Shown here: one piece after another, positions 23,995 through 36,330 of the stretch
Position numbering within the stretch: position 1 is the stretch's first letter
Layout: each line of letters begins with the position of its first letter
Source of the DNA: Pararhizobium sp. A13
Lineage (GTDB): Bacteria > Pseudomonadota > Alphaproteobacteria > Rhizobiales > Rhizobiaceae
Direction of reading: 5' to 3'
Length of the DNA: 64,000 bases
Assembly (NCBI RefSeq): GCF_040126305.1
Contig: NZ_CP149511.1
Coordinates: 1,441,861-1,505,860 of the forward strand
Notes under the pieces: generated by a model
What the model was told of the DNA's origin: nothing
Databases searched by the model: none
Seen by the model: the letters and a program-made list of their open reading frames with translations, nothing else
Made by a program: the position numbers and the translations under genes

Positions 23995-24352
23995 GTGAAT
24001 CGCTTTCTTTTTCGAATGGCTGATTTTCTTTCTCGCCCTCCCGGCTTTTATTTCGTTATCGTGGCGATGGTTGGCAGCACCGCCCTGGTGCCTTTTGGCT
24101 TCACAAACGTCATCACCTATGCTCTGTCGGTCGCGGCAATCGTGATCACCAGCGCCGTTTTGGTCCAAGGCTATCGCGACACCGCGGCAATCCACGCCAA
24201 GCTCGACGAAATCATCGTGCCAAATGCGTGAGACCCGGAATGAAGTGGTCGGCCTCGAGCACGAACAGCCCGAGCATATCGCGGCGGCAGTCGAGCGGCT
24301 CGCACAGGAAGCTGACAAGCAAGACCCAGCCAATCGGGAGACCCCTTTATAG
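23995..24352 (+). pseudogene. Low-affinity Fe/Cu permease family protein, frameshifted
   Basis: From GTG 23995 (GGAGAAC upstream) the frame reads NRFLFRMADFLSRPPG, two hydrophobic segments, then RDTAAIHAKLDEII, which is the low-affinity iron permease family. It stops at 24231. The expected continuation (RNEVVGLEHEQPEHIAAAVER) is found in the +1 frame from about 24227 to a stop at 24352. A single frameshift near 24227 therefore splits a gene of about 119 codons. It may be a real pseudogene or a sequencing error. Family members sit in the inner membrane; iron transport itself is poorly supported for this group. Confidence 0.6.
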
Positions 24353-24673
24353 TGGAATTGCATATACTCGACGGCAGTATCTCTTCGGTGCGCCAGCCTA
24401 TCCGCGCGGGTACCGACGTGAAGGTGCTCGGCTTCCACAAGGCGAGCGCCGATACCGCAGACAAGTTCGCGCTCCACGACAAGGACGCGCGGTAGGCAGC
24501 CAGCCCCTCGTTGGGTTGACCAACCTTCTATTGTCCGGTGACCCGGCAACAGCGCATGGTCCTCGTGGATCAAGCGAGCGTTCCGTTAATAGTGTCAGGT
24601 TTTTCAAGAACTGTGACCGCAGTTCTCATGATCGGGAAGGTCCGCCGGCCACGACCCGAACCCATCGGAAGCC

Positions 24674-24862
24674 TTAGGCCGCAACGGCGACGCGTTGTGT
24701 CACATGGGCTCTAACGGCTTCGCGCGCTTCGGAAGCCGACGAAAAGCTCCTGCCATCAAGCTCCATGACATCGTATTTCACTGCCATGAAGGCAAGGCAT
24801 CCGTCACGCGGTATAAGAACACCAACCGGGACACCCTGGTATTCGACAACCTGCTTCATCAC
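24674..24862 (-). CDS. Small hypothetical protein
   Basis: A 61-62-residue protein with tandem GTG/ATG starts (24862/24859) preceded by GGAGAA. The sequence VVEYQGVPVGVLIPRDGCLAFMAVKYDV, then FSSASEAREAVRAHV, looks like a compact alpha/beta fold in which the Arg-Asp-Gly turn follows two strands. I do not recognise a named family. It stands alone in a gene-poor zone. The coding call rests on the ribosome site and on protein-like composition. Confidence 0.5.
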   Translation of the reverse strand: MMKQVVEYQGVPVGVLIPRDGCLAFMAVKYDVMELDGRSFSSASEAREAVRAHVTQRVAVAA

Positions 24863-25696
24863 TGAATTCTCCGTTCAGGGCGCAATACTGATTGGCACGG
24901 ATACGAGCGGACGCGGTTTGCGTCACATTCGATCTCGACAACCATGCACCTTCTGGATGGAAATGAGAGACAAGGTTCTTGTGAAAATATTCAAGATACT
25001 CTCCTCCTCATCCCGGGTCTGACCTATCGGCTAACAGGGTTTGAAAGTACATTACATGTCGGGTTTGTCAATTCGATATCAGAAGATAGTAGAATGAAAT
25101 TTCAATAGTATGACATTTGGTGAGTTTTCTAGGAACTGCGTTCCTTAATGCCCTTTTGCAACGCAACATAATTCCGTGCGGCGCAATAGACCCTGCAGAT
25201 GGATCAGTCTGCTGTCTGCAGTCAACGAAGCCGCAATTGGCGATCATGTGCGCCGCTTCAGGATGAGCAACGTCCTATAAGCGGAGTGGCTAATCTCGTT
25301 GCATTCGCGCTGCCGATGGTCACACATCAGGGGCCCGATGAAAGAGCGGTTGCACCCGCACGGGCGACCCGCAGCGGAGCGCCGAGACCGGGACAATTTT
25401 GTTGCGCGAGAAGATCCCAAAGGGACCGGGGAAAACCGTTCCGGACAAAGGTTGCGGCCGATCCGGACGGCCCTAATGAATCCTACGCCGGGTGCTGCAG
25501 AGAGATGGTCGCGTGAAATCAGCCACTTTAATGCGGACTGGGAATGAATTTGTTCCCAAAGGTAACGTCGGGGACATTTCTGCCGCCGAACTGTGATTCC
25601 AAAGGTCCTGTCGCAAACCGATTAAGCATCTCCGGGCCGAACGAGCCCGATTTCGTACGGCCAGGAGAGTTCTTGAAGATGGCGAGGCTTTAAGAT
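24863..25696. other. Non-coding or decayed stretch
   Basis: No supported gene is seen on either strand. Composition shifts between AT-rich (about 24980-25110) and GC-rich parts. A short dyad AGGAAC-TGC-GTTCCT lies near 25131. The reverse strand around 25500-25600 reads as short protein-like pieces broken by stops, perhaps an old insertion-sequence end, but this is not firm. Confidence 0.4.
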
Positions 25697-26128
25697 TCAG
25701 GCGAATATTCCGCGCAAGCGGCCCCAAATGCCTTGCCCCCGGTCAATATGCTTCGCCCGGATATAGCGCCCGACCTTTGCAGCGCTTACTATCGCACCAA
25801 AATGACAGGAGCAGACAATTCTGTGCAACTGCCTGTCGGACAGCTCGAAAAACCGCTTCGCCTCCCCGTAAGTGTCGTTCTCCAGCCCAGCTGCCCGAAG
25901 GAGCGGGTCACTTAAGGCAACGGAGATCGCCGAATTGTTGCAACGGATAGCCGCTCGCACCGTCGCTGGCTGATATTCGGTCTCTTGCAATGTCGAAAGT
26001 ACCCGGGAGGGATCCCCTTCGAGAAGCTCCACCCATCGTTGGAGACGTTTGTCCCGCGGCATGAGCTGAGGGTAATCCTGGCCGATCCTGGCGAGGGTCT
26101 GCAGTTGATCGAGTCCATGGTGCTTCAT
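25697..26128 (-). CDS. Hypothetical protein
   Basis: A 143-residue protein. ATG 26128 is favoured over the longer frame (26170) because GGGAGGA lies 5-6 nt upstream. The N-terminal third is helical and charged (QTLARIGQDYPQLMPRDKRLQRWVELLE), and the C-terminal third contains paired Cys/His residues (RIVCSCHFGAIVSAAKVGRYIRAK). No signal peptide or membrane segment is seen. I do not recognise the family. The upstream 96-residue DUF1330 gene is divergent. Confidence 0.6.
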   Translation of the reverse strand: MKHHGLDQLQTLARIGQDYPQLMPRDKRLQRWVELLEGDPSRVLSTLQETEYQPATVRAAIRCNNSAISVALSDPLLRAAGLENDTYGEAKRFFELSDRQLHRIVCSCHFGAIVSAAKVGRYIRAKHIDRGQGIWGRLRGIFA

Positions 26129-26281
26129 ATCGTCCTCCCGACGAGTGATGCTGACCTCCATGCCGATCAAAGGCAGGTTGTATTCTGATCGGCGGTTATA
26201 ATTTTAGAGCTATGGCAAATACCTGCAATATCAAGAGCTATCGTCATGCTGGCTGAGGACAATTTGTGCTAAACTCGCCGG

Positions 26282-26572
26282 ATGAGCGCCTACTACATCT
26301 TTCAAGAGAATTTGCACGACCCGGCAAAATTCGAAGCCTATCGAAAGGTGGTCATGTCGACGCTGGCGCCGTTCGAGGGAAGGATCATCGCCCGAGGCGG
26401 CGAACTCACCGTGGTCGAAGGCGAGTGGCCATTCGATCGGACAGTGATCCTGGAATTCCCCTCCCGGACTGCCGCTGAGGCCTGGTACAACTCTCCCGCA
26501 TATCAGGTGATCCTACCACTCCGTCTGCAAAGTATGATGTGTAATGCGATCTTGATTGACGGAGTGGGATAA
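26282..26572 (+). CDS. DUF1330 domain-containing protein
   Basis: A 96-residue dimeric alpha/beta-barrel type protein. The family pattern is visible: AYYIFQENLHDPAKFEAYRK at the start, GRIIARGGELTVVEG in the middle and EFPSRTAAEAWYNSPAYQ toward the end. It is a cytoplasmic orphan gene divergent from a hypothetical protein. Molecular function of DUF1330 is not established. Confidence 0.85.
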   Translation: MSAYYIFQENLHDPAKFEAYRKVVMSTLAPFEGRIIARGGELTVVEGEWPFDRTVILEFPSRTAAEAWYNSPAYQVILPLRLQSMMCNAILIDGVG

Positions 26573-26740
26573 AGCCCTGAAATGGATAAAAATGCCGCCG
26601 ATGCCGGACCAGCGCATCCGCTACGTCGATGCGCTAGCCATCGAGGCTACATAATCCACCAGCGGTCACCGTGCGCGGTGCAGTGCTGATTGACAGGCTC
26701 GCACACGCGTCAAGCCACCCCAATGTGAATGATGTTGCCC

Positions 26741-26839
26741 ATGACTCGTGTCGGCTATGCCCGCGTCAGCACGACTGATCAGGATCTCGATATCCAGATC
26801 GCCCGGCTCAATGCTGCCGGTTGCGACATCGTCCGATAG
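26741..26839 (+). pseudogene. Serine recombinase (resolvase/invertase) N-terminal stub
   Basis: ATG 26741 opens TRVGYARVSTTDQDLDIQIA and stops after 32 residues. YARVSTTDQ is the catalytic serine motif at the N-terminus of Tn3-type resolvases and DNA invertases, normally about 185-200 residues. The rest of the gene is absent or destroyed, so this is a relic of a transposon or invertase. Confidence 0.7.
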
Positions 26840-26862
26840 GTGACTGGATCAGGCGGCGCTGA

Positions 26863-27066
26863 AGTTTCGTTAATCTTGATGCGATTGAAGCCAGGACAAA
26901 AGCCATTAAGGAAGGCCTGAAATCTAAGGCCACGCAACTCAAGGAAGCTGTCGACGAGAAGGTGGAGAAGCTTGGCGACAAGTCTCCGACCAAACGCCGC
27001 AACTTTCTGGAGATCTTCGACACGACGGTGCCTGACCCAGTGGAAGTTGGCATGACAGCCGAATGA
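26863..27066 (+). pseudogene. C-terminal fragment of an unrecognised protein
   Basis: An open frame without a good start reads VNLDAIEARTKAIKEGLK, then a lysine-rich amphipathic stretch and RRNFLEIFDTTVPDPVEVG, ending at a TGA at 27064-27066. Composition is protein-like and coiled-coil-like, but an in-frame stop at 26860 removes any N-terminus. It directly follows the resolvase stub. It could be the tail of a passenger gene. Confidence 0.35.
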
Positions 27067-27510
27067 CTATGAGGCGAGCGAGGCATTTAAATGGATCGCC
27101 TTGGTTAGGCCGAACGCTCGTTAACGTGCCCAAAGCAGCTCGCGGATCGTCCTGAAATATTCACCTCTGCGGTTCATTTCAGCCTGCAACGCTGCTATAG
27201 GTTGAAGGGAGTGGCGACCCGAAGCGGCCGTTTGATATGGTCTTCGTGTGGCTCAGCACCAAAGGTTGATCCCGATGAGATCCGGGACAACGATCTGGAG
27301 TTACTGCAGAAACAGAAAAAACAGCGGGGTTACGATCAGTGCCGGTCGCGGGTTCTTCTCCGCGTCGAACTTCGTTTGAGAATCAGCAGGTTGCGCTTCG
27401 CCAGCGAGGGGCCAACCTTCGGTGCTGATTCACACCACATCTGCCTTGGTGCACTTTTTTACATGCTGGTTCGAAAACGCACGGCTCAATACGTCACAGC
27501 TTCCCCATAG
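27067..27510. other. No supported gene
   Basis: No convincing coding frame or RNA gene is visible. The stretch lies between the decayed fragment and the hairpin that follows the DUF1127 gene. Confidence 0.4.
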
Positions 27511-27533
27511 CGGTCGCCGCCCAGCGGCGACCG
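27511..27533 (-). terminator. Hairpin downstream of the DUF1127 gene
   Basis: A perfect 10-bp stem CGGTCGCCGC / GCGGCGACCG with a 3-nt loop begins 4 nt after the stop codon of the DUF1127 gene. The minus side lacks a T-run, while on the plus side ATTTTAA follows. Placement suggests mRNA 3'-end formation or protection for the DUF1127 transcript. Confidence 0.55.
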
Positions 27534-27537
27534 GATT

Positions 27538-27771
27538 TTAAAGCCGGATATCCCAAAGGGAAAGTCTGGCTTCCAGGAGCACGTCCTCAATCTCCGGAAG
27601 GCCAATATCGCGACGCATGCGATTTGACAGGTGCGAGACCTGGTTCGTTTGACGACGCCTCAGGGCGGCCCGAAGCAACGCAACCACGGTCTTCCAGACG
27701 CCGAATTTCAGGTACAGCTCATCCACAGCTGCCGTCAGGGTATCAACAACTAAAAATTGGGTTTCGCTCAT
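27538..27771 (-). CDS. DUF1127 domain-containing small protein
   Basis: A 77-residue protein with the C-terminal DUF1127 (YjiS-like) motif SHLSNRMRRDIGLPEIE. A helical N-terminus precedes it (VVDTLTAAVDELYLKFGVWKT). DUF1127 proteins are abundant in Rhizobiaceae; some are arginine-rich regulators of RNA turnover and phosphate or carbon metabolism. Here the domain is only moderately basic. It is a monocistronic gene in the relic zone with a strong hairpin at its 3' end. Confidence 0.85.
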   Translation of the reverse strand: MSETQFLVVDTLTAAVDELYLKFGVWKTVVALLRAALRRRQTNQVSHLSNRMRRDIGLPEIEDVLLEARLSLWDIRL

Positions 27772-28683
27772 GATTTTCTATCCCGGCGCTATCACGCAAC
27801 CAGGTCCTCTCGAAGGTCAAAAAAGACGTGCGAATGCAGATGCTGAAACGAGAACAGTCGTTTCGTCAGCCGGTCACGTCAGGTCAGTTGGGGAAATGCC
27901 AAGTGGCAAACGGGCTTAAAAGCCTCGGGAGCAAGATCGGCTTGGGGTAGATGCGCGACGCATCGAAACCATGAGAGCCGGTCCGTCAGAGAGGCGCACA
28001 AACACTCGAATAGATATCATCTCATGCCCTCCTCTGCTTTAAATTGCGAGCAAGACCAAGATACATGAGGTTGCTTGATCGGCAAGTACAGAATTTCTGC
28101 TTGTAGAAACCTCACAGGATCCGTTGCAGCAATGCAACACTAACCCCGATGATGCTCGCTCCCCCTTAAGCCGCCACTCTGTTTCAGCGCGCTGCGCCGT
28201 AGCTCGGCTTGTTGCCGTCGGCTGTCGAACACTTGAGCTTGTTCGGCTCACTCCGTTGCTTGTTGCATAGCGCTCTGGCCAAATGTGGCGGACACATCGC
28301 TGACGCTCGGCGATGTCGGTGGCCGCGGTGATCCTTGTTGTCGAAACCATCGTGACCGGCGGGCATGTGATCCTTGCCGGCCGAGCCGCAAACTCTTGCG
28401 CACCCCTCCGCTGGCGTCATCCATGTCACAGCCGCCTCGAGGCTTCCGTGGTGCCCTGATCCTGGCTCTGCATCCCATGCGAAATTCGTGAACAGAAAAC
28501 CAGCGTTCCCAGGGGGGAACGCTGGTTCTGATGCCGACGCATTGAAGAACAAAGCGTCGATTGGTGAGGCTTTGTTGGGGGAAGAAAGGCCTCAACCTTC
28601 CTAAAAGACACCGAGACCAATTTGGTTCCACCATGTCCTAGCCGGCATCGTTGTACCGGGCATTGAAAATCCGGGAGGAAATC
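27772..28683. other. Gene-poor region before the giant repeat gene
   Basis: No gene is supported on either strand. The reverse frame at 28184-28552 gives a His/Gly-rich product, but no ribosome site or family supports it. The only clear structure is the hairpin at 28499-28526. Confidence 0.4.
28499..28526 (-). terminator. Strong hairpin, terminator-like on the minus strand
   Basis: A perfect 12-bp stem (ACCAGCGTTCCC / GGGAACGCTGGT) with a 4-nt loop. On the minus strand the stem runs into TTTTCTGTTC, like an intrinsic terminator. It lies about 500 bp beyond the end of the octad-repeat gene on that strand and could end its transcript or that of a small RNA. Confidence 0.5.
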
Positions 28684-28923
28684 ATGAAGAAACTGATCAG
28701 ACCTCCCGTATCCCTGTTCTTGTCGCTCGGCGGGGTGGCGACCACGCAGACAGCGACGGTCGTCGTTCCGGCGAGGTCAGGACCTATGCAGTTCAGGAGG
28801 ACGGAAGATGACAGTGGCTCGGCATGCAAACTGCCGGGAGCTTTCGACATCGACTGGCGGCGCCATGCCGGAGCCGGTACGATCTTCCTCAATCTCATCC
28901 ACGACGTCGACAACTGCGCGTGA
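28684..28923 (+). CDS. Small hypothetical protein with N-terminal signal-like segment
   Basis: A 79-residue frame from ATG 28684, with GGGAGGA 5 nt upstream, a strong ribosome site. The N-terminus KKLIRPPVSLFLSLGGVATTQTA is basic then hydrophobic and could be a secretion signal. The remainder has no recognised domain. It is convergent with the giant repeat gene and its 3' end lies about 100 bp from that gene's stop. Confidence 0.45.
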   Translation: MKKLIRPPVSLFLSLGGVATTQTATVVVPARSGPMQFRRTEDDSGSACKLPGAFDIDWRRHAGAGTIFLNLIHDVDNCA

Positions 28924-29028
28924 CCGATGGATATGCGCGGCGACACAATCGCCAAGGACGGCACGAGATGCTCCCGCTACCAAAGGGGCCTTTGCCGTTG
29001 CCGTGCACTTCGTGGCTGCGGAGAAGGG

Positions 29029-32000
29029 TTAGACTGCTAGATAAGCCGAAATGACTGCCGCAATCTGATCCGAATTCAGAGCCGCCATCTGGGAGTCTAT
29101 CAAAGCGTCCAGTTGTTTGCTGGACAGGCTCGCGATGTCTCCCGTTGACAGCCCCGCTACACCAGTTGAGCTAAGAGACGCAACATCGTCCGTTGAGAAG
29201 GTTGCCAGATCGTCCGTGGTCAGTGCCGCTATTTGCGCTGAAGTCAGGGCACTGACTTGGGCTGATGTCAGAGCCTCAGCCTGCTCCGTCGTCAAGGCGG
29301 CAACGACCCTGGTGCTCAATCCCGAGACCGCACTCGAGCTCAAGGCGACGATATGATCGGTGGAAAACTGGGCGATGTCGTCTGTGCCGAGCGCTGCCGC
29401 CTGCATTGCGTTCAGAGCGCTGACCTGCGACGTGGACAACGCCGCAATTTGGCCAGTGCTCATCGCCGCCACCTGGTTGTATCCCAGCGAACCAATCTGA
29501 CTTTTGCTCAAACCGGCAATCTCGTCAGGGGAAAGGGCCGCTATAACATCCGTGGATAGTCCCTTAATGGCATCCAAGCCGATCAACGCGAGTTCGTCGG
29601 TTGAGAACGTTTCCAGATCCCCCGTGGTCAGGCCCGCGAGCCCATCCGCACTCAAAGCGGCAATCTGGCCGGTGGAAAGCGCTTCGATCTGCTCGGTACT
29701 CAAGGCGCTAACCTGATCGCTGCTTAGGCCCGCAATGCCCTTCGTGCTCAAGGCGGCAATCTCGGCAGTGGAGAACGCAGCGACAAAGTCCGTGGACAAT
29801 CCGGAAATGCCATCCGAGCTGATTGCCGCAAGTTCCTCGGTCGAGAATGTTTCCAGATCTTCCGTGGTTAGGCCAGCGAATGCATCCGCACTCAAAGCGG
29901 TAATCTGGCCGGTGGACAGCGCTTCGATCTGCTCGGGACTCAAGGCACTGACCTGATCGCTGCTCAGGCCCGCAATGCCGGCCGGGCTCACGGCGGCGAT
30001 CTGGTCGATCGAGAGAGCCGCTACCTCGTCAGTACCCAGGGCTGTAACCTGTTTGGAGCTGAGAGCGCTGACCTGCTTGGTAGACAAGGCTTCAATCTGG
30101 TCGGTGCTCAACGCATGGATCTGGCCAGTGGAAAGGCCTGCAATGCCTGCCGTGCTCAAGGCGGCAATCTGGTCCGTCGAAAAGGCAGCTATCGTGTCTG
30201 TGGACAACCCCGAGACGGCACTCGAGCTGATCGCCGCGATATGGGCGGTCGAGAAGGCTTGCAGATCGTCGGTACCGAGCACAGCAATCTGCTTCCAACT
30301 CAGCGCAGCAACCTGCTCGGTCGACAAGGCCTCAATCTGGTCGGTGCTCAACGTATTGATCTGGCCGGTGGAAAGGCCCGCGATGCCAGCCGTGCTCAAC
30401 GCGGCAATCTGGTCCGCCGAAAAGGCGGCTATCGTGTCCGTGGACAATCCCGAGACGGCACTGGAGCTGATCGCCGCGATATGGGCGGTCGAGAAGGTTT
30501 CCAGATCGTCCGTACTGAGCGCCGCAATCTGCGTCGAGCTCAGCGCAGCAACCTGATCGGTGGACAAGGCCTCAACCTGGTCGTTGCTCAACGCATTGAT
30601 CTGGCCGGTGGAAAGGCCCGCGATGCCAGCCGTGCTCAAGGCGGCAATCTGGTCCATCGAGAGAGTCGGTATGTTGTCAGTGCCCAGGGTTGCAATCTGT
30701 TTGGAGCTGAGAGCACTGAACTGCCAGGTCGACAAGGCCTCAATCTGGTCGGTGCTCAACGTATTGATCTGGTCGGTGGAAAGGCCCGCGATGCCAGCCG
30801 TGCTCAAGGCGGCAATCTGATCCGCCGAAAACGCCGCTATCGCGCCCGTGGACAATCCCGATACGGCACTCGAACCGATCGCAGCGATATCGGCGGTTGA
30901 GAAAGTCTCCAGATCGTCCGTGCCCAGGGCTGCAATCTGCGTCGAACTCAGCATTGCAATCTGGGCAGCGGTCAAGGCCTCAACCTGGTCAGTGCTCAAA
31001 GCAACGATATTTGTGGTGCTCAGGCCCTTGATGCCAGCCGTGCCCAAGGCAGCAATCTGGTCGGTCGAGAGGGCCGCCATGTCTTCGGTATCCAAGGCTG
31101 CAACTTGTTTGGAGCTGAGAGCGCTGACCTGGGCAGCGGTCAAGGCCTCAATCTGGTCAGTGCTCAACGTATCGATCTGGTCGCTGGAAAGGTCCGCAAT
31201 GCCGGCTGTGCTCAACGCGGCAATCTGGTCAGCGGAAAGGGCGGCGATGAGGTCTGTCGACAATCCCGATATAGCGCTCGCGCTGATCGCCGCGATGTCG
31301 TTGGTAGAGAGGGCCTCGAAGTCGTCCGTTCCCAGGACCGCGACCTGTGTCGAGCTGAGAGCGCCGACCTGGGCAGTTGTCAAGGCCTCAAGCTGGTCGC
31401 TGTTCAAAGTAACGATCTGTGTAGTGCTCAGTCCCGCAATGCCAACCGTGCTCAGGGCCGCGATCTGGTCGATCGAGAGAACCGCTATGCCGTCAGTACC
31501 CAGGGCTGCAATCTGTTTGGAGGTGAGAGCGCTGACCTGCCTGGTAGACAAGGCCTCAATCTGGTCGGTGCTCAACGCGTTGATCTGGCCAGTGGAAAGG
31601 CCTGCAATGCCTGCCGTGCTCAAGGCAGGGATCTGGTCCGTCGAAAAGGCGGCTAGGGTGTCTGTGGACAATCCCGAGACGGCACTCGAGCTGATCGCCG
31701 CGATATCGGCGGTTGAGAAAGTTGCTATGTCATCCGTGTTCAAGGCAGCGACTTGCTTTGAACTGAGGGCGCCGATCTGAGCAGTGGTCAAGGCCTCAAC
31801 CTGCACAGAGCTCAACGTGACGATATCTGTGGTGCTCAGCCCCGCAATGCCAGCCGTGCTCAAGGCGGCAATCCGATCGGTCGAGAGTACCGCTACATCG
31901 TTCGTGCTCAAGGCAGCGACTTGTTTGGAGCTGAGAGCGCCGATCTGGTCAGCGGTCAAGGCCGCAACCTGGTCGGTGCTCAACGCATCGATCTGCTTGG

Positions 32001-35000
32001 TGCTTAGTCCCGCAATGCCAGCCGTGCTCAGGGCGGCAATCTGGTCGGTCGAGAGAGCTGCTATTACATCTGTGGACAGTCCATATATGACATCCGCGCT
32101 GATCGCCGCAATGTCCTTGGTCGAAAAGGCCTCTATATCGTCTGTATCAAGCACTTTAATTTGTTGGGAGCTGAGAACGCTGATCTGCTTGGTTGATAGG
32201 GCCTCAATCTGCTCGGTGCTTAGGACGTCGATCTGCTTCGTGCTCAGTCCGGCAATGCCAGCCGCGCTCAAGGCGGCAAGCTGGTCGGTCGAGAGAGCTG
32301 CTACAACAGCTGTGGACAGGCCCGACATGGCGCTCGAGCTGATCGCCGCCATGTCCTTGGTCGAGAAGGTTGCTATGTCATCCACTTCCAGGGCAGCGAT
32401 CTGTGTCGAGCCGAGAGCGCCGACCTGGACGGTTGTCAGGGCCTCAACCTGGTCGGTGCTTAGAGCAACGATCTGTTTGGTGTTCAGTCCCGCAATGCCA
32501 GCCGCGCCCAAGGCGGCAATCTGATTGGTCGAGAAGGCCGCTAAATCGCTCGTGCCCAAAGCTGCGACCTGCGCCGAACTCAACACTGCAACCTGCTTGG
32601 TGCTCAAAACGGCGATCTGGCTGGTGCTGAGGGCGTCGATCTGGTCGGTGCTTAGTCCGGCAATGCCAGCCGTGCTCAGGGCGGCAATCTGGTCGGTCGA
32701 GAGGGCTGCTACAACAGCTGTGGACAGGCCCGACATGGCACTCAAGCTGATCGCCGCGATGTCCTTGGTCGAGAAAATTGCTATGTCGTCCGCTCCCAGG
32801 GCAGCGACCTGTGTCGAGCCGAGAGCGCCGACCTGGGCAGTGGTCAAGGCCTCAATCTGGGCGGTGCTTAGAGCAACAATCTGTTTGGTGCTCAGTCCCG
32901 CAATGCCAGCCGCGCTCAGGGCGGCGATCTGCTCGGTCGAGAAGGCCCCTAAATCGTTTGTCTCCAAGGCTGCGACTTGCGCCGAACTTAGCACTGCAAC
33001 CTGCTTGGTGCTCAAAACGGCGATCTGGCTAGTGCTCAGGGCGTCGATCTGGTCGGTGCTCAGTCCGGCAATGCCAGCCGTGCTCAAGACGGCGATCGTG
33101 TCGGAGGACAATGCAGCAACATTGTCTGTGCTCAAGGCAGCAACTTGCGTCGAACTCAGTACTGCAATCTGTTTGGTGCTCACAACGACGATCTGCTCAG
33201 TGCTCAGGGCGTCGATCTGGTCGGTGCTCAGACCCGCAATGCCAGTCGTGCTCAGGGCGGCAATCTGATCCGTCGAAAGCGCGGCTATCGTGTCTATCGA
33301 CAATCCCGATATGGCACGCAAGCTGATCGCCGCGATATCATCGGTCGAGAAAGTTGCTATATCGTCCGCATCCAGGGCCGCAAGCTGTGTAGAGCTGAGA
33401 ACACCAATCTGTGCAGAGGACAAGGTTTTAACCTGGTCGGTGGACAAGGCTTCAATCTGATCGGTGCTCAGGCTCTTAGCGGCCTTCGTGCTCAGGGCGG
33501 CAACCTGGTCGGTGGAAAGGGCCGCGATGACGTCTATCGACAATCCCGATATGGCACTGGAGCTGATCGCCGCGATATCATCGGTCGAGAAAATTGCTAT
33601 ATCGTCCGCATCCAGGGCCGCAAGCTGTGTAGAACCGAGAACAGCAACCTGTGCAGAGGACAAGGCTTCGACCTGGTCGGTGGATAACGATTCAATTTGA
33701 TCGGTGCTCAGGCTCGTAACGGCCTTCGCGCTCAGGGCGGCAACCTGATCGGTGGACAAGACGGCGACATTGTCCGGGCTCAAGGCAGTGATTTGCGTCG
33801 AGCCCAACATCTTGATCTGTGCAACGGAAAATGCCGCAGTCTGGTCGGTGGACAAGGCGCTGATCTGCGTGGTCGTCAGGCTCGCGACCGCGCTGATGCT
33901 AAATGCAGCAATCTGGTCAGTGGAAAGGGACGTGATAACATCCGTGGTCAAGCCTGCTATGGCTTTATTACTGATCGCTGCAATATCGGCGGTCGAAAAT
34001 GTCGCTATGGCGTCCGCCCCCAGGGCCACAAGCTGCGTCGAGCTCAGCGACTTCACCTGTAAGGTGGATAGCGCCGCAGCCTGGCCGGTCGACAAGGCAG
34101 CGATCTGTGCGGTCGTCAAACTCACGACCGCACTCGTGCTCAAGGCAGTAATGTGATCGGAGGAAAGCGCGGCGATAACGCCCGTGGTCAAGCCCGCTAT
34201 GGCTTTACTACTGATCGCTGAGATATCGGCGGTCGAAAATGTCGCTATGTCGTCCGTCCCCAGGGCCGCAAGCTGTCGCGCGCTCAGCGATTTCACCTGT
34301 GAGACGGATAGTGCCTCGGCCTGGTCGGTCGACAAGGCACCGATCTGACTAGAAGTCAGGCCTGCGACGCCATTCGTACTCAGGGCGGCAACCTGATCGG
34401 TGGACAAGGCCGCAATCTTGTCCGTGCTCAATGTAGCGACTTGCGTCGAACTCAACGTCTTGACCTTTGCCACCGAAAATGCCGCGATGTGGTCGGTGGA
34501 CAACGCGCCGATCTGTGCGGTCGTCAGGCTCGCGACCGCACTCGTGCTCAAGGCAGTGATCTGTTCAGTCGAAAGCGCCGCCATAACGCCCGTGGTCAAG
34601 CCCGCTATGGCTTTATTACTGATCGCTGCGATATCGGCGGTCGAAAATGTCGCTATGGCGTCTGTCCCCAGGGCCGCAAGCTGTCGCGCGCTCAGCGACT
34701 TCACCTGTGAGACGGATAGTGCCTCGGCCTGGTCGGTCGACAAGGCACCGATCTGACTAGAAGTCAGGCCTGCGACGCCCTTCGTGCTCAGGGCGGCAAT
34801 CTGATCGGTGGACAATACCGCAATCTTGTCCGTGCTCAAGGCAGCGACTTGCGTCGAACCCAACATCCTGACCTGTGTAACGGAAAATGCCGCGATCTGG
34901 TCGGTGGACAAGGCGCCGATCTGTACGGTCGTCAGGCTCGCGACAGCACTTGTGCCAAAGGCGGTGATCTGTTCAGTGGAAAGCGCCGCCATAACGCCCG

Positions 35001-35700
35001 TGGTCAGGCCCGATACGGCTTTATTGCTGATCGCTGCAATATCGGCGGTCGAAAATGTCGCTATGTCGTCCGTCCCCAGGGCCGCAAGCTGTCGCGAGCC
35101 CAGCGACTTCACCTGTAAGATGGATAGTGCCTCAGCCTGGTCGGTGGACAAGGCGCCGATCTGTGCGGTCGTCAGGTTCGCGACCGCACTCGTGCTAAAG
35201 GCGGCAATCTGGTCAGTGGAAAGGGACGCGATAACATCGGTGGTCAGGCCCGATACGCCTCTCCCGCTGATAGCCGCGATATCAGCGGTTGAGAAGGTTG
35301 CCAGGTCATCCGTGCTTAGGGCCGCAAGTTGCGACGCGCTAAGGGCGCTTACTTGCGAGGAGATCAAGGCTTCCGCCTGATCTGTCGTCAAAGCTCCAAT
35401 CTGCGTCGTGGTGAGTGCTGCAACCTGACTCGAGCCCAAACTTTCGACGTCATATTTATCCAGAATAGCCAATTGATCCAGAGTCAAACCAACGATGGCG
35501 CTTTGCGAAATGGCGCTTAGCTGCCGGGTGCTGAGGGCTTCAACATCCTCCGTGTCCAAAGCGGCGACTTGAGCTGAAGAAAGCGCTTTGATCTGATTTG
35601 TAGAAAGGGACGCCACCTCGTCCGTAGTCCAGGTAGCGACTGCCGCAGTTGAAAGAGACCTGATCTGATTGGCGCTTAGGGAAGAGATGATCGAGGTCAT
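29029..35700 (-). CDS. Giant octapeptide-repeat protein (2223 aa), function unknown
   Basis: A single frame of 2223 residues. After six residues (MTSIIS) almost the whole protein is one array of octads of form x-L-S-T-x-Q-[IV]-x, for example ALSTDQIA, with no phase slip: 277 octads plus one residue fill it exactly. No cysteine is seen, tryptophan is nearly absent and no Sec signal is visible. Super-repeats of 10 and 17 octads are marked by TFSTADIAAIS blocks. The S/T-x-D-Q pattern fits helix N-caps, so a solenoid of short helices or a beta-solenoid is possible. ATG 35700 has AAGGG about 9 nt upstream. It may be a surface or type I-secreted adhesin, but no secretion genes are nearby. I do not recognise a family. 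Confidence 0.85.
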   Translation of the reverse strand: MTSIISSLSANQIRSLSTAAVATWTTDEVASLSTNQIKALSSAQVAALDTEDVEALSTRQLSAISQSAIVGLTLDQLAILDKYDVESLGSSQVAALTTTQIGALTTDQAEALISSQVSALSASQLAALSTDDLATFSTADIAAISGRGVSGLTTDVIASLSTDQIAAFSTSAVANLTTAQIGALSTDQAEALSILQVKSLGSRQLAALGTDDIATFSTADIAAISNKAVSGLTTGVMAALSTEQITAFGTSAVASLTTVQIGALSTDQIAAFSVTQVRMLGSTQVAALSTDKIAVLSTDQIAALSTKGVAGLTSSQIGALSTDQAEALSVSQVKSLSARQLAALGTDAIATFSTADIAAISNKAIAGLTTGVMAALSTEQITALSTSAVASLTTAQIGALSTDHIAAFSVAKVKTLSSTQVATLSTDKIAALSTDQVAALSTNGVAGLTSSQIGALSTDQAEALSVSQVKSLSARQLAALGTDDIATFSTADISAISSKAIAGLTTGVIAALSSDHITALSTSAVVSLTTAQIAALSTGQAAALSTLQVKSLSSTQLVALGADAIATFSTADIAAISNKAIAGLTTDVITSLSTDQIAAFSISAVASLTTTQISALSTDQTAAFSVAQIKMLGSTQITALSPDNVAVLSTDQVAALSAKAVTSLSTDQIESLSTDQVEALSSAQVAVLGSTQLAALDADDIAIFSTDDIAAISSSAISGLSIDVIAALSTDQVAALSTKAAKSLSTDQIEALSTDQVKTLSSAQIGVLSSTQLAALDADDIATFSTDDIAAISLRAISGLSIDTIAALSTDQIAALSTTGIAGLSTDQIDALSTEQIVVVSTKQIAVLSSTQVAALSTDNVAALSSDTIAVLSTAGIAGLSTDQIDALSTSQIAVLSTKQVAVLSSAQVAALETNDLGAFSTEQIAALSAAGIAGLSTKQIVALSTAQIEALTTAQVGALGSTQVAALGADDIAIFSTKDIAAISLSAMSGLSTAVVAALSTDQIAALSTAGIAGLSTDQIDALSTSQIAVLSTKQVAVLSSAQVAALGTSDLAAFSTNQIAALGAAGIAGLNTKQIVALSTDQVEALTTVQVGALGSTQIAALEVDDIATFSTKDMAAISSSAMSGLSTAVVAALSTDQLAALSAAGIAGLSTKQIDVLSTEQIEALSTKQISVLSSQQIKVLDTDDIEAFSTKDIAAISADVIYGLSTDVIAALSTDQIAALSTAGIAGLSTKQIDALSTDQVAALTADQIGALSSKQVAALSTNDVAVLSTDRIAALSTAGIAGLSTTDIVTLSSVQVEALTTAQIGALSSKQVAALNTDDIATFSTADIAAISSSAVSGLSTDTLAAFSTDQIPALSTAGIAGLSTGQINALSTDQIEALSTRQVSALTSKQIAALGTDGIAVLSIDQIAALSTVGIAGLSTTQIVTLNSDQLEALTTAQVGALSSTQVAVLGTDDFEALSTNDIAAISASAISGLSTDLIAALSADQIAALSTAGIADLSSDQIDTLSTDQIEALTAAQVSALSSKQVAALDTEDMAALSTDQIAALGTAGIKGLSTTNIVALSTDQVEALTAAQIAMLSSTQIAALGTDDLETFSTADIAAIGSSAVSGLSTGAIAAFSADQIAALSTAGIAGLSTDQINTLSTDQIEALSTWQFSALSSKQIATLGTDNIPTLSMDQIAALSTAGIAGLSTGQINALSNDQVEALSTDQVAALSSTQIAALSTDDLETFSTAHIAAISSSAVSGLSTDTIAAFSADQIAALSTAGIAGLSTGQINTLSTDQIEALSTEQVAALSWKQIAVLGTDDLQAFSTAHIAAISSSAVSGLSTDTIAAFSTDQIAALSTAGIAGLSTGQIHALSTDQIEALSTKQVSALSSKQVTALGTDEVAALSIDQIAAVSPAGIAGLSSDQVSALSPEQIEALSTGQITALSADAFAGLTTEDLETFSTEELAAISSDGISGLSTDFVAAFSTAEIAALSTKGIAGLSSDQVSALSTEQIEALSTGQIAALSADGLAGLTTGDLETFSTDELALIGLDAIKGLSTDVIAALSPDEIAGLSKSQIGSLGYNQVAAMSTGQIAALSTSQVSALNAMQAAALGTDDIAQFSTDHIVALSSSAVSGLSTRVVAALTTEQAEALTSAQVSALTSAQIAALTTDDLATFSTDDVASLSSTGVAGLSTGDIASLSSKQLDALIDSQMAALNSDQIAAVISAYLAV
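29035..35682 (-). repeat. 24-bp coding tandem array (277 units) with 240- and 408-bp super-repeats
   Basis: The DNA under the octad protein is a tandem array of diverged 24-bp units, 6648 bp in all. Near-identical blocks recur every 240 bp (compare 30121, 30361, 30601, and 33301 with 33541) and every 408 bp (around 34201 and 34609). This indicates growth by unequal crossing-over of multi-unit blocks. Because the unit is a multiple of three, long false frames are open on the plus strand. Confidence 0.85.
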
Positions 35701-36330
35701 GAGTGAAAGCCCTTGATGTAAGCCGATTGTCTAATCAATTTAATTTACCGACAGTCGCCCTGTAGAAGATGGAACCTTCCATGCAAGAACCTGCAGCGCA
35801 TCCACGGTCGGTGGCGGGCGTTGCCTGTCTGACCAGACGCTGACATTGCTACCGGTCATTCGAGCCCACCACCTCACTGGAAAGTGATTATAGGCGAATT
35901 GGCTTGCCTGAACCTGAAGTTGTGACGTGCTCACCCTCATTTGGAACTGGAATTTTCCACTCATGATCTTGCGGGGGAACAAGGAGCTCGATCAGGCACT
36001 GGCGTTTTTCGAGGCGCAAATTGCCTTTGAAGTGGACGGAGGATGCCGCACCGATCGCGGAGGTCTGCCGCAAGGTGAGATGAATCAGAGCGGACGGTTG
36101 CCCCCTCAAGGTCCCTCAATTTCGACACGCACAGTGTAGGGTTTGCTTTCACCCAGATGGAAAAATCGCGGTTCACCAAAAGTCATTGTCCAAGCCCCGT
36201 ATATCGCGGAAAGCCTGTGAGTACCGAGAGCGGTGCAATGCGCTGCCCCAGGGCGCCGGCAGCTTTGACAGCCACAGGCGTGATCAGGGACATCAGCCAA
36301 CCGCGTGAACGCCTTTTCACGCGACAGGCC
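35701..36330. other. Upstream region of the giant gene, possible decayed gene
   Basis: No intact gene is supported. The minus strand between about 36300 and 35890 gives protein-like pieces in different frames (FFHLGESKPYTVRVEIEG, then SALIHLTLRQTSAIGAASS), which could be a frameshifted relic. The promoter of the octad-repeat gene must lie in the first couple of hundred bases. Confidence 0.35.

Follow-up and report, generated by a model that had tools for sequence, protein, structure and literature searches.

An octapeptide-repeat protein of 2,223 residues in Pararhizobium sp. A13: a predicted helical rod and the glycosyltransferase cassette of its relatives

We take HMW1C to be a member of glycosyltransferase family GT41 that is encoded at the same locus as HMW1. 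HMW1 is a large exported protein, glycosylated by HMW1C at N-sequons and exported by two-partner secretion (PMC3012730). The flagellin glycosyltransferase of Caulobacter, FlmG, binds its substrate through a TPR domain and acts independently of the export apparatus; its substrate is flagellin, its sugar pathway is that of pseudaminic acid, and octads find no mention in the portion of the account drawn on here (PMC7591256). The repeat entries nearest to the locus described below are Pfam family PF20080 (ALTTAQ repeat), which is a sequence family, and HeliScrew4 (PDB 9zem), a solved chain of 120 residues with the same octad. A literature search covering neither most subscription journals nor any bioRxiv preprints returned no paper on the PF20080 family or on 9zem, no function or structure for ALTTAQ octads, and nothing linking GT41 to octad repeats.

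Here we describe an octad gene of Pararhizobium sp. A13, a soil bacterium of the Rhizobiaceae. The window, by which we mean the whole 64,000-nucleotide stretch of DNA analysed, lies at the end of contig C2 in a genome of 6.36 Mb and three contigs. The repeat, its family, the selection on it, the helix-per-octad prediction, the charge period and the gene association in relatives were computed; glycosylation and its O-linkage, the sugar, export of this protein and a surface role are proposed.

The octad gene and its repeat family

An open-reading-frame scan identified an octad ORF of 2,223 aa with an ATG start on the minus strand, a strand that the original prediction for this DNA did not give. 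The plus strand across the same positions contains many stops, and the antisense ORFs found there (118–310 aa, at a 100-aa limit) seem to be side effects of the repetition. The features of the locus are as follows.

29029..35700, minus strand: coding sequence of the octad protein, stop included (PF20080 at 1479.5 bits, orthologues, dN/dS)
35710..35714, minus strand: AAGGG, putative ribosome-binding site nine bases 5' of the ATG (sequence reading)
35416..35700, minus strand: conserved N-terminal stretch, approximately residues 1–95 (alignment of 12 proteins)
34483..35700, minus strand: N-terminal 406 residues, AF2 model (49 helices of at least 4 residues, pLDDT 94.6, pTM 0.81)
29032..29874, minus strand: C-terminal 281 residues, AF2 model (33 helices, pLDDT 93.6, pTM 0.83)
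29032..29121, minus strand: apparent C-terminal cap, the last two longer helices of 14 and 13 residues (alignment, AF2)
29505..35328, minus strand: tandem super-units of 408, 240 and 168 bp, or 17, 10 and 7 octads (TRF)

Translation of the minus-strand frame confirmed the predicted architecture: six leading residues (MTSIIS), 277 octads that stay in phase throughout, and one trailing V. The octad consensus is x-L-S-T-D-Q-I-A. Position 2 is drawn from L, F, I, V, M and W in all 277 octads (L 223, F 31, I 18), and position 7 from I, V, L, A, M and F in 276 of the 277 (I 157, V 75). The leading residues at the remaining positions are S 205 and T 30 (position 3), T 171 and S 51 (position 4), D 101 (position 5), Q 146 (position 6) and A 159 (position 8). 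The predicted lack of Cys and near lack of Trp were borne out by counting (0 Cys, 3 Trp), alongside 6 Pro, 592 Ser and Thr among 2,223 residues, and a net charge of −150. We also saw no Sec-like N-terminus by eye, in agreement with the earlier reading. N-glycosylation was rejected as a modification of this protein, which holds one N-x-S/T sequon in its 2,223 residues. Super-units of 136, 80 and 56 aa (TRF periods of 408, 240 and 168 bp) are superimposed on the octads with self-identities of 61, 56 and 49%; an F / I / G triplet of octads marks them.

Downstream of the gene, positions 24000–29000 of the window have a lower GC content (0.55 at 24–28 kb) and no large frames; four frames scanned there gave one recognised DUF1330 and one DUF1127 protein. 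The same genome encodes two octad paralogues of 1,279 and 304 aa, counted from the first start codon. The shorter, a third octad gene at L042:8351-9265 on contig C1, has no glycosyltransferase cassette in the stretch examined.

The original prediction knew of no named family for this architecture. A profile search overturned this: PF20080 spans the window protein in 85 stretches, with E=0 and 1479.5 bits against a curated cut-off of 26.4, so that the protein does belong to a named family. In a sequence search of the PDB, HeliScrew4 was the sole strong match (8e-19, residues 1837–1946), the next best being at 0.006. No NCBIfam model reached its cut-off on the window protein, and a Pfam search at E up to 1 found no RTX repeats (PF00353), Calx-beta or LapA. 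Matches to CAAP1, Sigma70_r4_2, HTH_26 and DUF4351 over the repeat, of which no stretch passes alone, were dismissed as helix-composition matches. As far as the searches reach, the architecture thus sits in a named repeat family that the literature searched leaves undescribed.

Octads are present in 41 of 247 Rhizobiaceae genomes, 34 of which have at least 25 matches and are called octad-rich here, as well as in 25 of 299 genomes across the phylum and in 56 plasmid records. Genomes of a distant family, f37, contain octad-bearing ORFs of 5,333–6,436 aa (G117:C1, G117:C323, G105:C1 and G065:C40). In other lineages (L070, L073, L074, L075 and L076), short ALTTAQ stretches accompany LysM and SH3, Ig-like, calpain-like and pilin-like N-methylation domains. 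Caulobacter vibrioides, a control genome, has both PF20080 and GT41 matches.

A phage structural rod, one of the identities proposed originally, was rejected. Two of 50,697 phage records matched, both from Mycobacterium phage Squirty, and one viral-contig scan confirmed no relative. The Squirty match is a weak repeat match in gene 51 (NC_026588.1 36397-36894; 24.7% identity, 3e-6).

Conservation, predicted fold and charge periodicity

One scan of genome contigs recovered 13 loci encoding relatives of the window protein, 12 in genera that we take to be Rhizobiaceae and one in a 'Rhizobiales bacterium'. Lengths were compared for the window protein and 11 orthologues, translated from the start codon and excluding the split frames of L053 and L054. 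These 12 proteins measure 2,142–3,086 aa; the window protein and two orthologues are exactly 2,223 aa long, and three orthologues are 2,303 aa long. In all eight orthologue pairs analysed, dN/dS was 0.08–0.21 (Nei-Gojobori; dS 0.4–1.7). L046, L052 and L056 align without gaps over 2,303 codons (three pairs, dS 0.4–1.1), as do L050 and L055 over 2,223 codons. The octad gene is not an idle array, because orthologues of the same length are under purifying selection; it is a real, conserved gene. Between the window protein and L046, L048, L050 and L052, most of the larger gaps are 24, 56 or 80 residues, i.e., 3, 7 and 10 octads, and L048 and L050 show further gaps of 8 and 16 residues and a few of 1–3.

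Both ends are conserved. The last 281 residues have a mean column identity of 80% across nine proteins, and the first ~95 form the part of the N-terminal 406-residue alignment of 12 proteins with the most invariant columns. The tail ..AAVISAYLAV is similar in most orthologues, with differing ends in L047, L050, L051, L053 and L055; together with the C-terminal cap, it is a candidate export signal. By their ends, octad proteins sort into window-like and paralogue-like, and at L049, L090 and L099 the glycosyltransferase cassette is flanked by one gene of each type. The paralogue-like proteins at these loci measure 1,143–2,184 aa, a size range overlapping that of the window-like ones. The octad gene of Rhizobium alarense (L054:8001-14755; L088) is split into three ORFs of 701, 838 and 1,143 aa by decay or assembly error.

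AF2 was run on shallow alignments of the window and locus proteins, with 9 rows for the C-terminal 281 residues and 12 rows for the N-terminal 406. The models contain 33 helices (pLDDT 93.6) and 49 helices (pLDDT 94.6), respectively, values to be read alongside a report that AF2 can be over-confident on repeats, which concerns beta solenoids (PMC11795689). The window protein is accordingly predicted to be an alpha solenoid with nearly one short helix per octad, in keeping with the regular solenoid or rod first proposed. A beta-solenoid or ice-binding rod, also suggested at that stage, was rejected, as neither model contains a single strand. All helices are 4–6 residues long except three of 13–14, two of which lie at the C-terminal end of the protein and look like a cap. 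The helices start at octad position 4, directly after residue 3, and therefore Ser/Thr3 would be the N-cap and Gln/Asp6 the capping-box residue, in the general terminology of helix ends. In most octads of HeliScrew4, the equivalent place has [ST]-P-[ED]-[QK].

Foldseek found no good match of the C-terminal model in the PDB (entries up to April 2026). The best E-value, 9.6e-6, came at a TM-score of 0.19; among the best 50 of 521 matches, the highest TM by query was 0.37 and 9zem was absent. Against viral proteins, the highest TM among the best 50 listed was 0.36.

In a superhelical rod, surface features should recur once per turn. Periods of 18–60 residues were scanned in 39 Rhizobiaceae proteins with at least 60 octad matches (seven near-duplicates had been dropped, and the remainder are still related) and in seven proteins from other lineages. 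The top D/E period lay at 26.4–28.0 residues in all 39 Rhizobiaceae proteins, whose mean spectrum peaks at 27.2 residues, or 3.4 octads. The mean spectrum of the other lineages peaks there too, as do three of the seven individually (L063, L064, L067 and L071 peak elsewhere), and a Gly period coincides with this peak in 26/39 and 2/7 proteins, respectively. Plotted on a wheel of 3.4 octads, the window protein has its acids of positions 3, 5, 6 and 8 directed to 99–128 degrees and its K/R to 289. Ser/Thr at positions 3 and 4 are spread all round the wheel (R 0.05–0.06), and those at positions 5 and 8 tilt off its acid side.

K/R are periodic in 32 of the 46 proteins and show no significant period in 14; where periodic, they lie opposite D/E in 27/28 Rhizobiaceae and 4/4 other proteins. 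The explanation that the basic stripe is mere exclusion from acid sites proved partly true. Under a column-preserving null, the opposition exceeded exclusion in all nine proteins tested (null reached 0–26 of 1,000); for the window protein, the null mean was −0.24 against an observed −0.44, reached by 11 of 1,000. Since exclusion accounts for part of the signal, the effect is modest in the window protein. This residue pattern suggests that the window protein is a charge-striped screw, with an acidic stripe opposite a basic one.

At this pitch, 17, 10 and 7 octads correspond to 5.0, 2.9 and 2.1 turns, and such near-integer turns may explain the tolerance for these super-units. The 277 octads would make 81 turns (277/3.4). 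Alpha solenoids have 0.9–1.0 nm per layer, and if the turns stack as in other alpha solenoids, the rod would be ~75–80 nm long; the original estimate of over 100 nm is probably too long.

Glycosyltransferase and export genes beside relatives

The strongest clue to function is the glycosyltransferase cassette of the relatives. A gene of 675–716 aa recurs next to the orthologues, and the three members scanned consist of TPR and GT41. The best PDB matches of the GT41 in the Pararhizobium genome are OGT (7yeh, 5e-77) and XcOGT of Xanthomonas (2e-74), with an HMW1C-like match at merely 1e-4. GT41 lies within 8 kb in 11 of the 13 named loci, which were not chosen for GT41 (it is absent at L045 and L051). 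It also stands beside octad genes at four of five plasmid loci opened, in Rhizobium sp. ACO-34A, Cereibacter sphaeroides, Rhodovastum and a Pseudomonas, and was not found at the Shinella HZN7 plasmid locus (L062).

At the genome level, 63 of 247 Rhizobiaceae genomes carry GT41: 27/34 octad-rich genomes vs. 36/213 others (Fisher 9e-13, kinship ignored), or 28/41 of all octad-positive genomes vs. 35/206 (1.8e-10, kinship ignored). All 16 octad-positive genomes of f37 have it. GT41 is common: 104 of the 299 genomes of the phylum have it, among them two of f37 (G097 and G153) that are off the octad list. Seven of the 34 octad-rich Rhizobiaceae genomes gave no GT41 match, and the six of these that were opened showed no cassette in the stretch fetched; the rod can therefore exist without the cassette. 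The octad proteins of other lineages with LysM, Ig-like, calpain or pilin-like domains likewise belong to genomes without GT41. A different modifying gene beside GT41-less octad genes was sought among 10 neighbours and rejected: three belong to unrelated families and seven to none, two of the seven appearing, by composition, to be antisense to other genes.

We examined 20 GT41 regions of octad-rich genomes, of which 19 had been selected since adjacency was already visible. In these 19, GT41 was present throughout, UDP-galactopyranose mutase in 18, and a gene of ~417 aa, by our own reading a putative glycosyltransferase, in seven. Overall, the mutase was found in 23 of 35 octad-GT41 loci (18/19 adjacency-selected, 5/16 others; two redundant pairs of the same species or with identical GT41, L048/L100 and L054/L088, are included) vs. 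0 of 22 control GT41 loci, where the stretches fetched held no octads, mutase or ~417-aa gene. Among the f37 octad loci opened, most chosen for a shared contig, GT41 lay in the stretch at 7/11 and was missing from it at 4/11. Near an octad gene of G105 (L165:1-10596), the 3,532-aa part of a 3,781-aa ORF contains four GT41 domains, a glycosyltransferase chain in one polypeptide.

In a first GT41 tree, which had only 26 control rows, all from Rhizobiaceae, a single clade (100/99) took in 35 of the 36 octad-adjacent rows. A single origin of all octad-associated GT41s was rejected after a wider domain tree (103 rows, quick method). There, the octad neighbours fall into separate groups, namely a Rhizobiaceae clade whose sister is an f37 class, a trio from plasmids, and additional f37 classes; deep nodes are weak. 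We therefore limit the claim to a repeated or ancient association.

Neither GT41 nor the mutase nor a type I exporter turned up in the vicinity of the window copy at 29029–35700. The only octad-type GT41 of this genome adjoins the 1,279-aa paralogue on contig C1 (L041:8781-17951 in G000), where the paralogue is divergent from TPR-GT41, a 417-aa putative glycosyltransferase and UDP-galactopyranose mutase. As the sole enzyme of this type sits beside the paralogue, modification of the window protein would have to take place in trans.

The type I exporter anticipated by the original prediction adjoins some relatives and is lacking beside the window copy. HlyD and ABC genes directly adjoin the octad gene at 6 of 11 f37 loci (G034, G041, G045, G073, G077 and G137) in the order octad-HlyD-ABC-GT41, with GT41 ~5 kb further on in G077; no exporter was found at the other five (G105 twice, G117, G065 and G101), three of which have little flank. 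Type I secretion genes also adjoin octad genes on the Cereibacter and Pseudomonas plasmids, in G258 and in Rhizobium cremeum; in R. cremeum, T1 ABC, HlyD, GT41, mutase and octad gene all lie on one strand. Among the Rhizobiaceae loci fetched, ABC and HlyD stand beside the octad gene solely in R. cremeum. Four HlyD genes of the Pararhizobium genome exceed the cut-off, none next to an octad gene.

Interpretation and comparison with known systems

These observations can be combined into one mechanism. The octad gene would encode a very long, stiff, all-helical rod in which each octad forms one minimal alpha helix, with Ser/Thr3 as N-cap, residue 6 in the capping box, and a core of hydrophobic residues from positions 2 and 7. 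At about 3.4 octads to a superhelix turn, an acidic stripe would lie on one side and a basic stripe on the opposite side, with Ser/Thr all round. The OGT-like TPR-GT41 would O-glycosylate these Ser/Thr in the cytosol, the acting enzyme in the Pararhizobium genome being most likely the paralogue-adjacent one on contig C1, in trans. The glycan probably contains galactofuranose made by the neighbouring mutase. Type I secretion would then carry the glycosylated rod to the cell surface, and its role there may lie in adhesion, in the matrix or in side-by-side assembly with other such rods. We give an even chance to the window protein being an exported helical-screw rod with a surface role, O-glycosylated in the cytosol by GT41. 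A further-reaching proposal is more speculative, and we advance it tentatively: a new class of giant glycoproteins, in which charge-striped screws of hundreds of octads, O-glycosylated all round by an OGT-like GT41 with a galactofuranose-containing glycan, would leave the cell by type I secretion and zip acid-to-basic into surface sheets or bundles, the octad being both structural unit and genetically adjustable glycosylation-site array.

The same rod could be a mechanical or adhesive surface structure that is exported yet unglycosylated, its link to GT41 being incidental or lineage-specific. Such a rod would explain why octads persist in 7/34 octad-rich genomes without GT41 and why the relatives with LysM, SH3, Ig-like and pilin-like domains live in GT41-less genomes, and it accommodates the type I genes beside some octad genes. 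It is harder to reconcile with GT41 beside octad genes in several separate lineages and with the mutase in 23/35 octad-GT41 loci vs. 0/22 controls, and we regard it as rather unlikely. Export itself is dispensed with if the protein is a cytosolic scaffold or filament, in which bipolar rods pair acid to basic face and GT41 is a regulatory OGT. The acid and basic stripes, the lack of a Sec signal by eye and the window copy without a neighbouring exporter all suit this, and in eukaryotes OGT resides in the cytosol and nucleus. Against it stand HlyD and ABC genes directly adjoining octad genes in six genomes of f37 and in Cereibacter, Pseudomonas, R. cremeum and G258, as well as the extracellular-type partner domains of some relatives; UDP-galactopyranose mutase, moreover, belongs to surface glycan pathways. 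We consider a cytosolic role improbable.

A neutral, minisatellite-like expansion without present function would account for the perfect repeat phase, and the super-units of 408, 240 and 168 bp could stem from unequal crossing-over. This explanation conflicts with a dN/dS of 0.08–0.21 in eight pairs, with three pairs gap-free over 2,303 codons at dS 0.4–1.1, and with conserved ends and a conserved charge period. The selection data already largely refute it, leaving it hardly any probability.

If the preferred reading of an exported, O-glycosylated rod is true, bacteria build very long rods from a tiny helical repeat whose pitch of 27.2 residues per turn can be read in the sequence, and give them a coat of O-linked sugar via an OGT relative. 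To our knowledge, the octad is one of the smallest helical repeats. It would offer a simple, naturally repetitive substrate for studying Ser/Thr choice by OGT-like enzymes and a scaffold that protein designers could program, and it would be a specific candidate for an as yet unknown component of the surface of many bacteria that live in soil or with plants. Octads occur widely (41/247 Rhizobiaceae and 25/299 phylum genomes) and are undescribed in the literature searched.

Overall, the octad protein resembles several described systems in part. It shares with PF20080 an identical octad, repeated along its whole length, and with HeliScrew4 the same octad at 8e-19; HeliScrew4 is short, has Pro at position 4 of most octads, and is likened to it by sequence match. 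The best, though weak, of the Foldseek matches listed for the C-terminal model include mesothelin (1.8e-4) and a designed armadillo protein (8.8e-4), both of which have longer helices per repeat than octads and reach a TM by query of ≤0.31. The type I giant adhesins of the LapA and RTX kind are similar in size, in being repetitive, and in the HlyD and ABC genes beside some octad relatives; they differ in the RTX, Calx-beta and LapA signatures that the window protein lacks. With FlmG, the octad system shares a TPR-bearing glycosyltransferase, FlmG being set apart by its flagellin substrate and pseudaminic acid pathway. Finally, HMW1 with HMW1C offers the precedent of a large exported protein with GT41-type glycosylation, a feature proposed here for the octad protein, which is unlike HMW1 in its single sequon, its OGT-like GT41, the type I genes of its relatives and its predicted all-helical octads.
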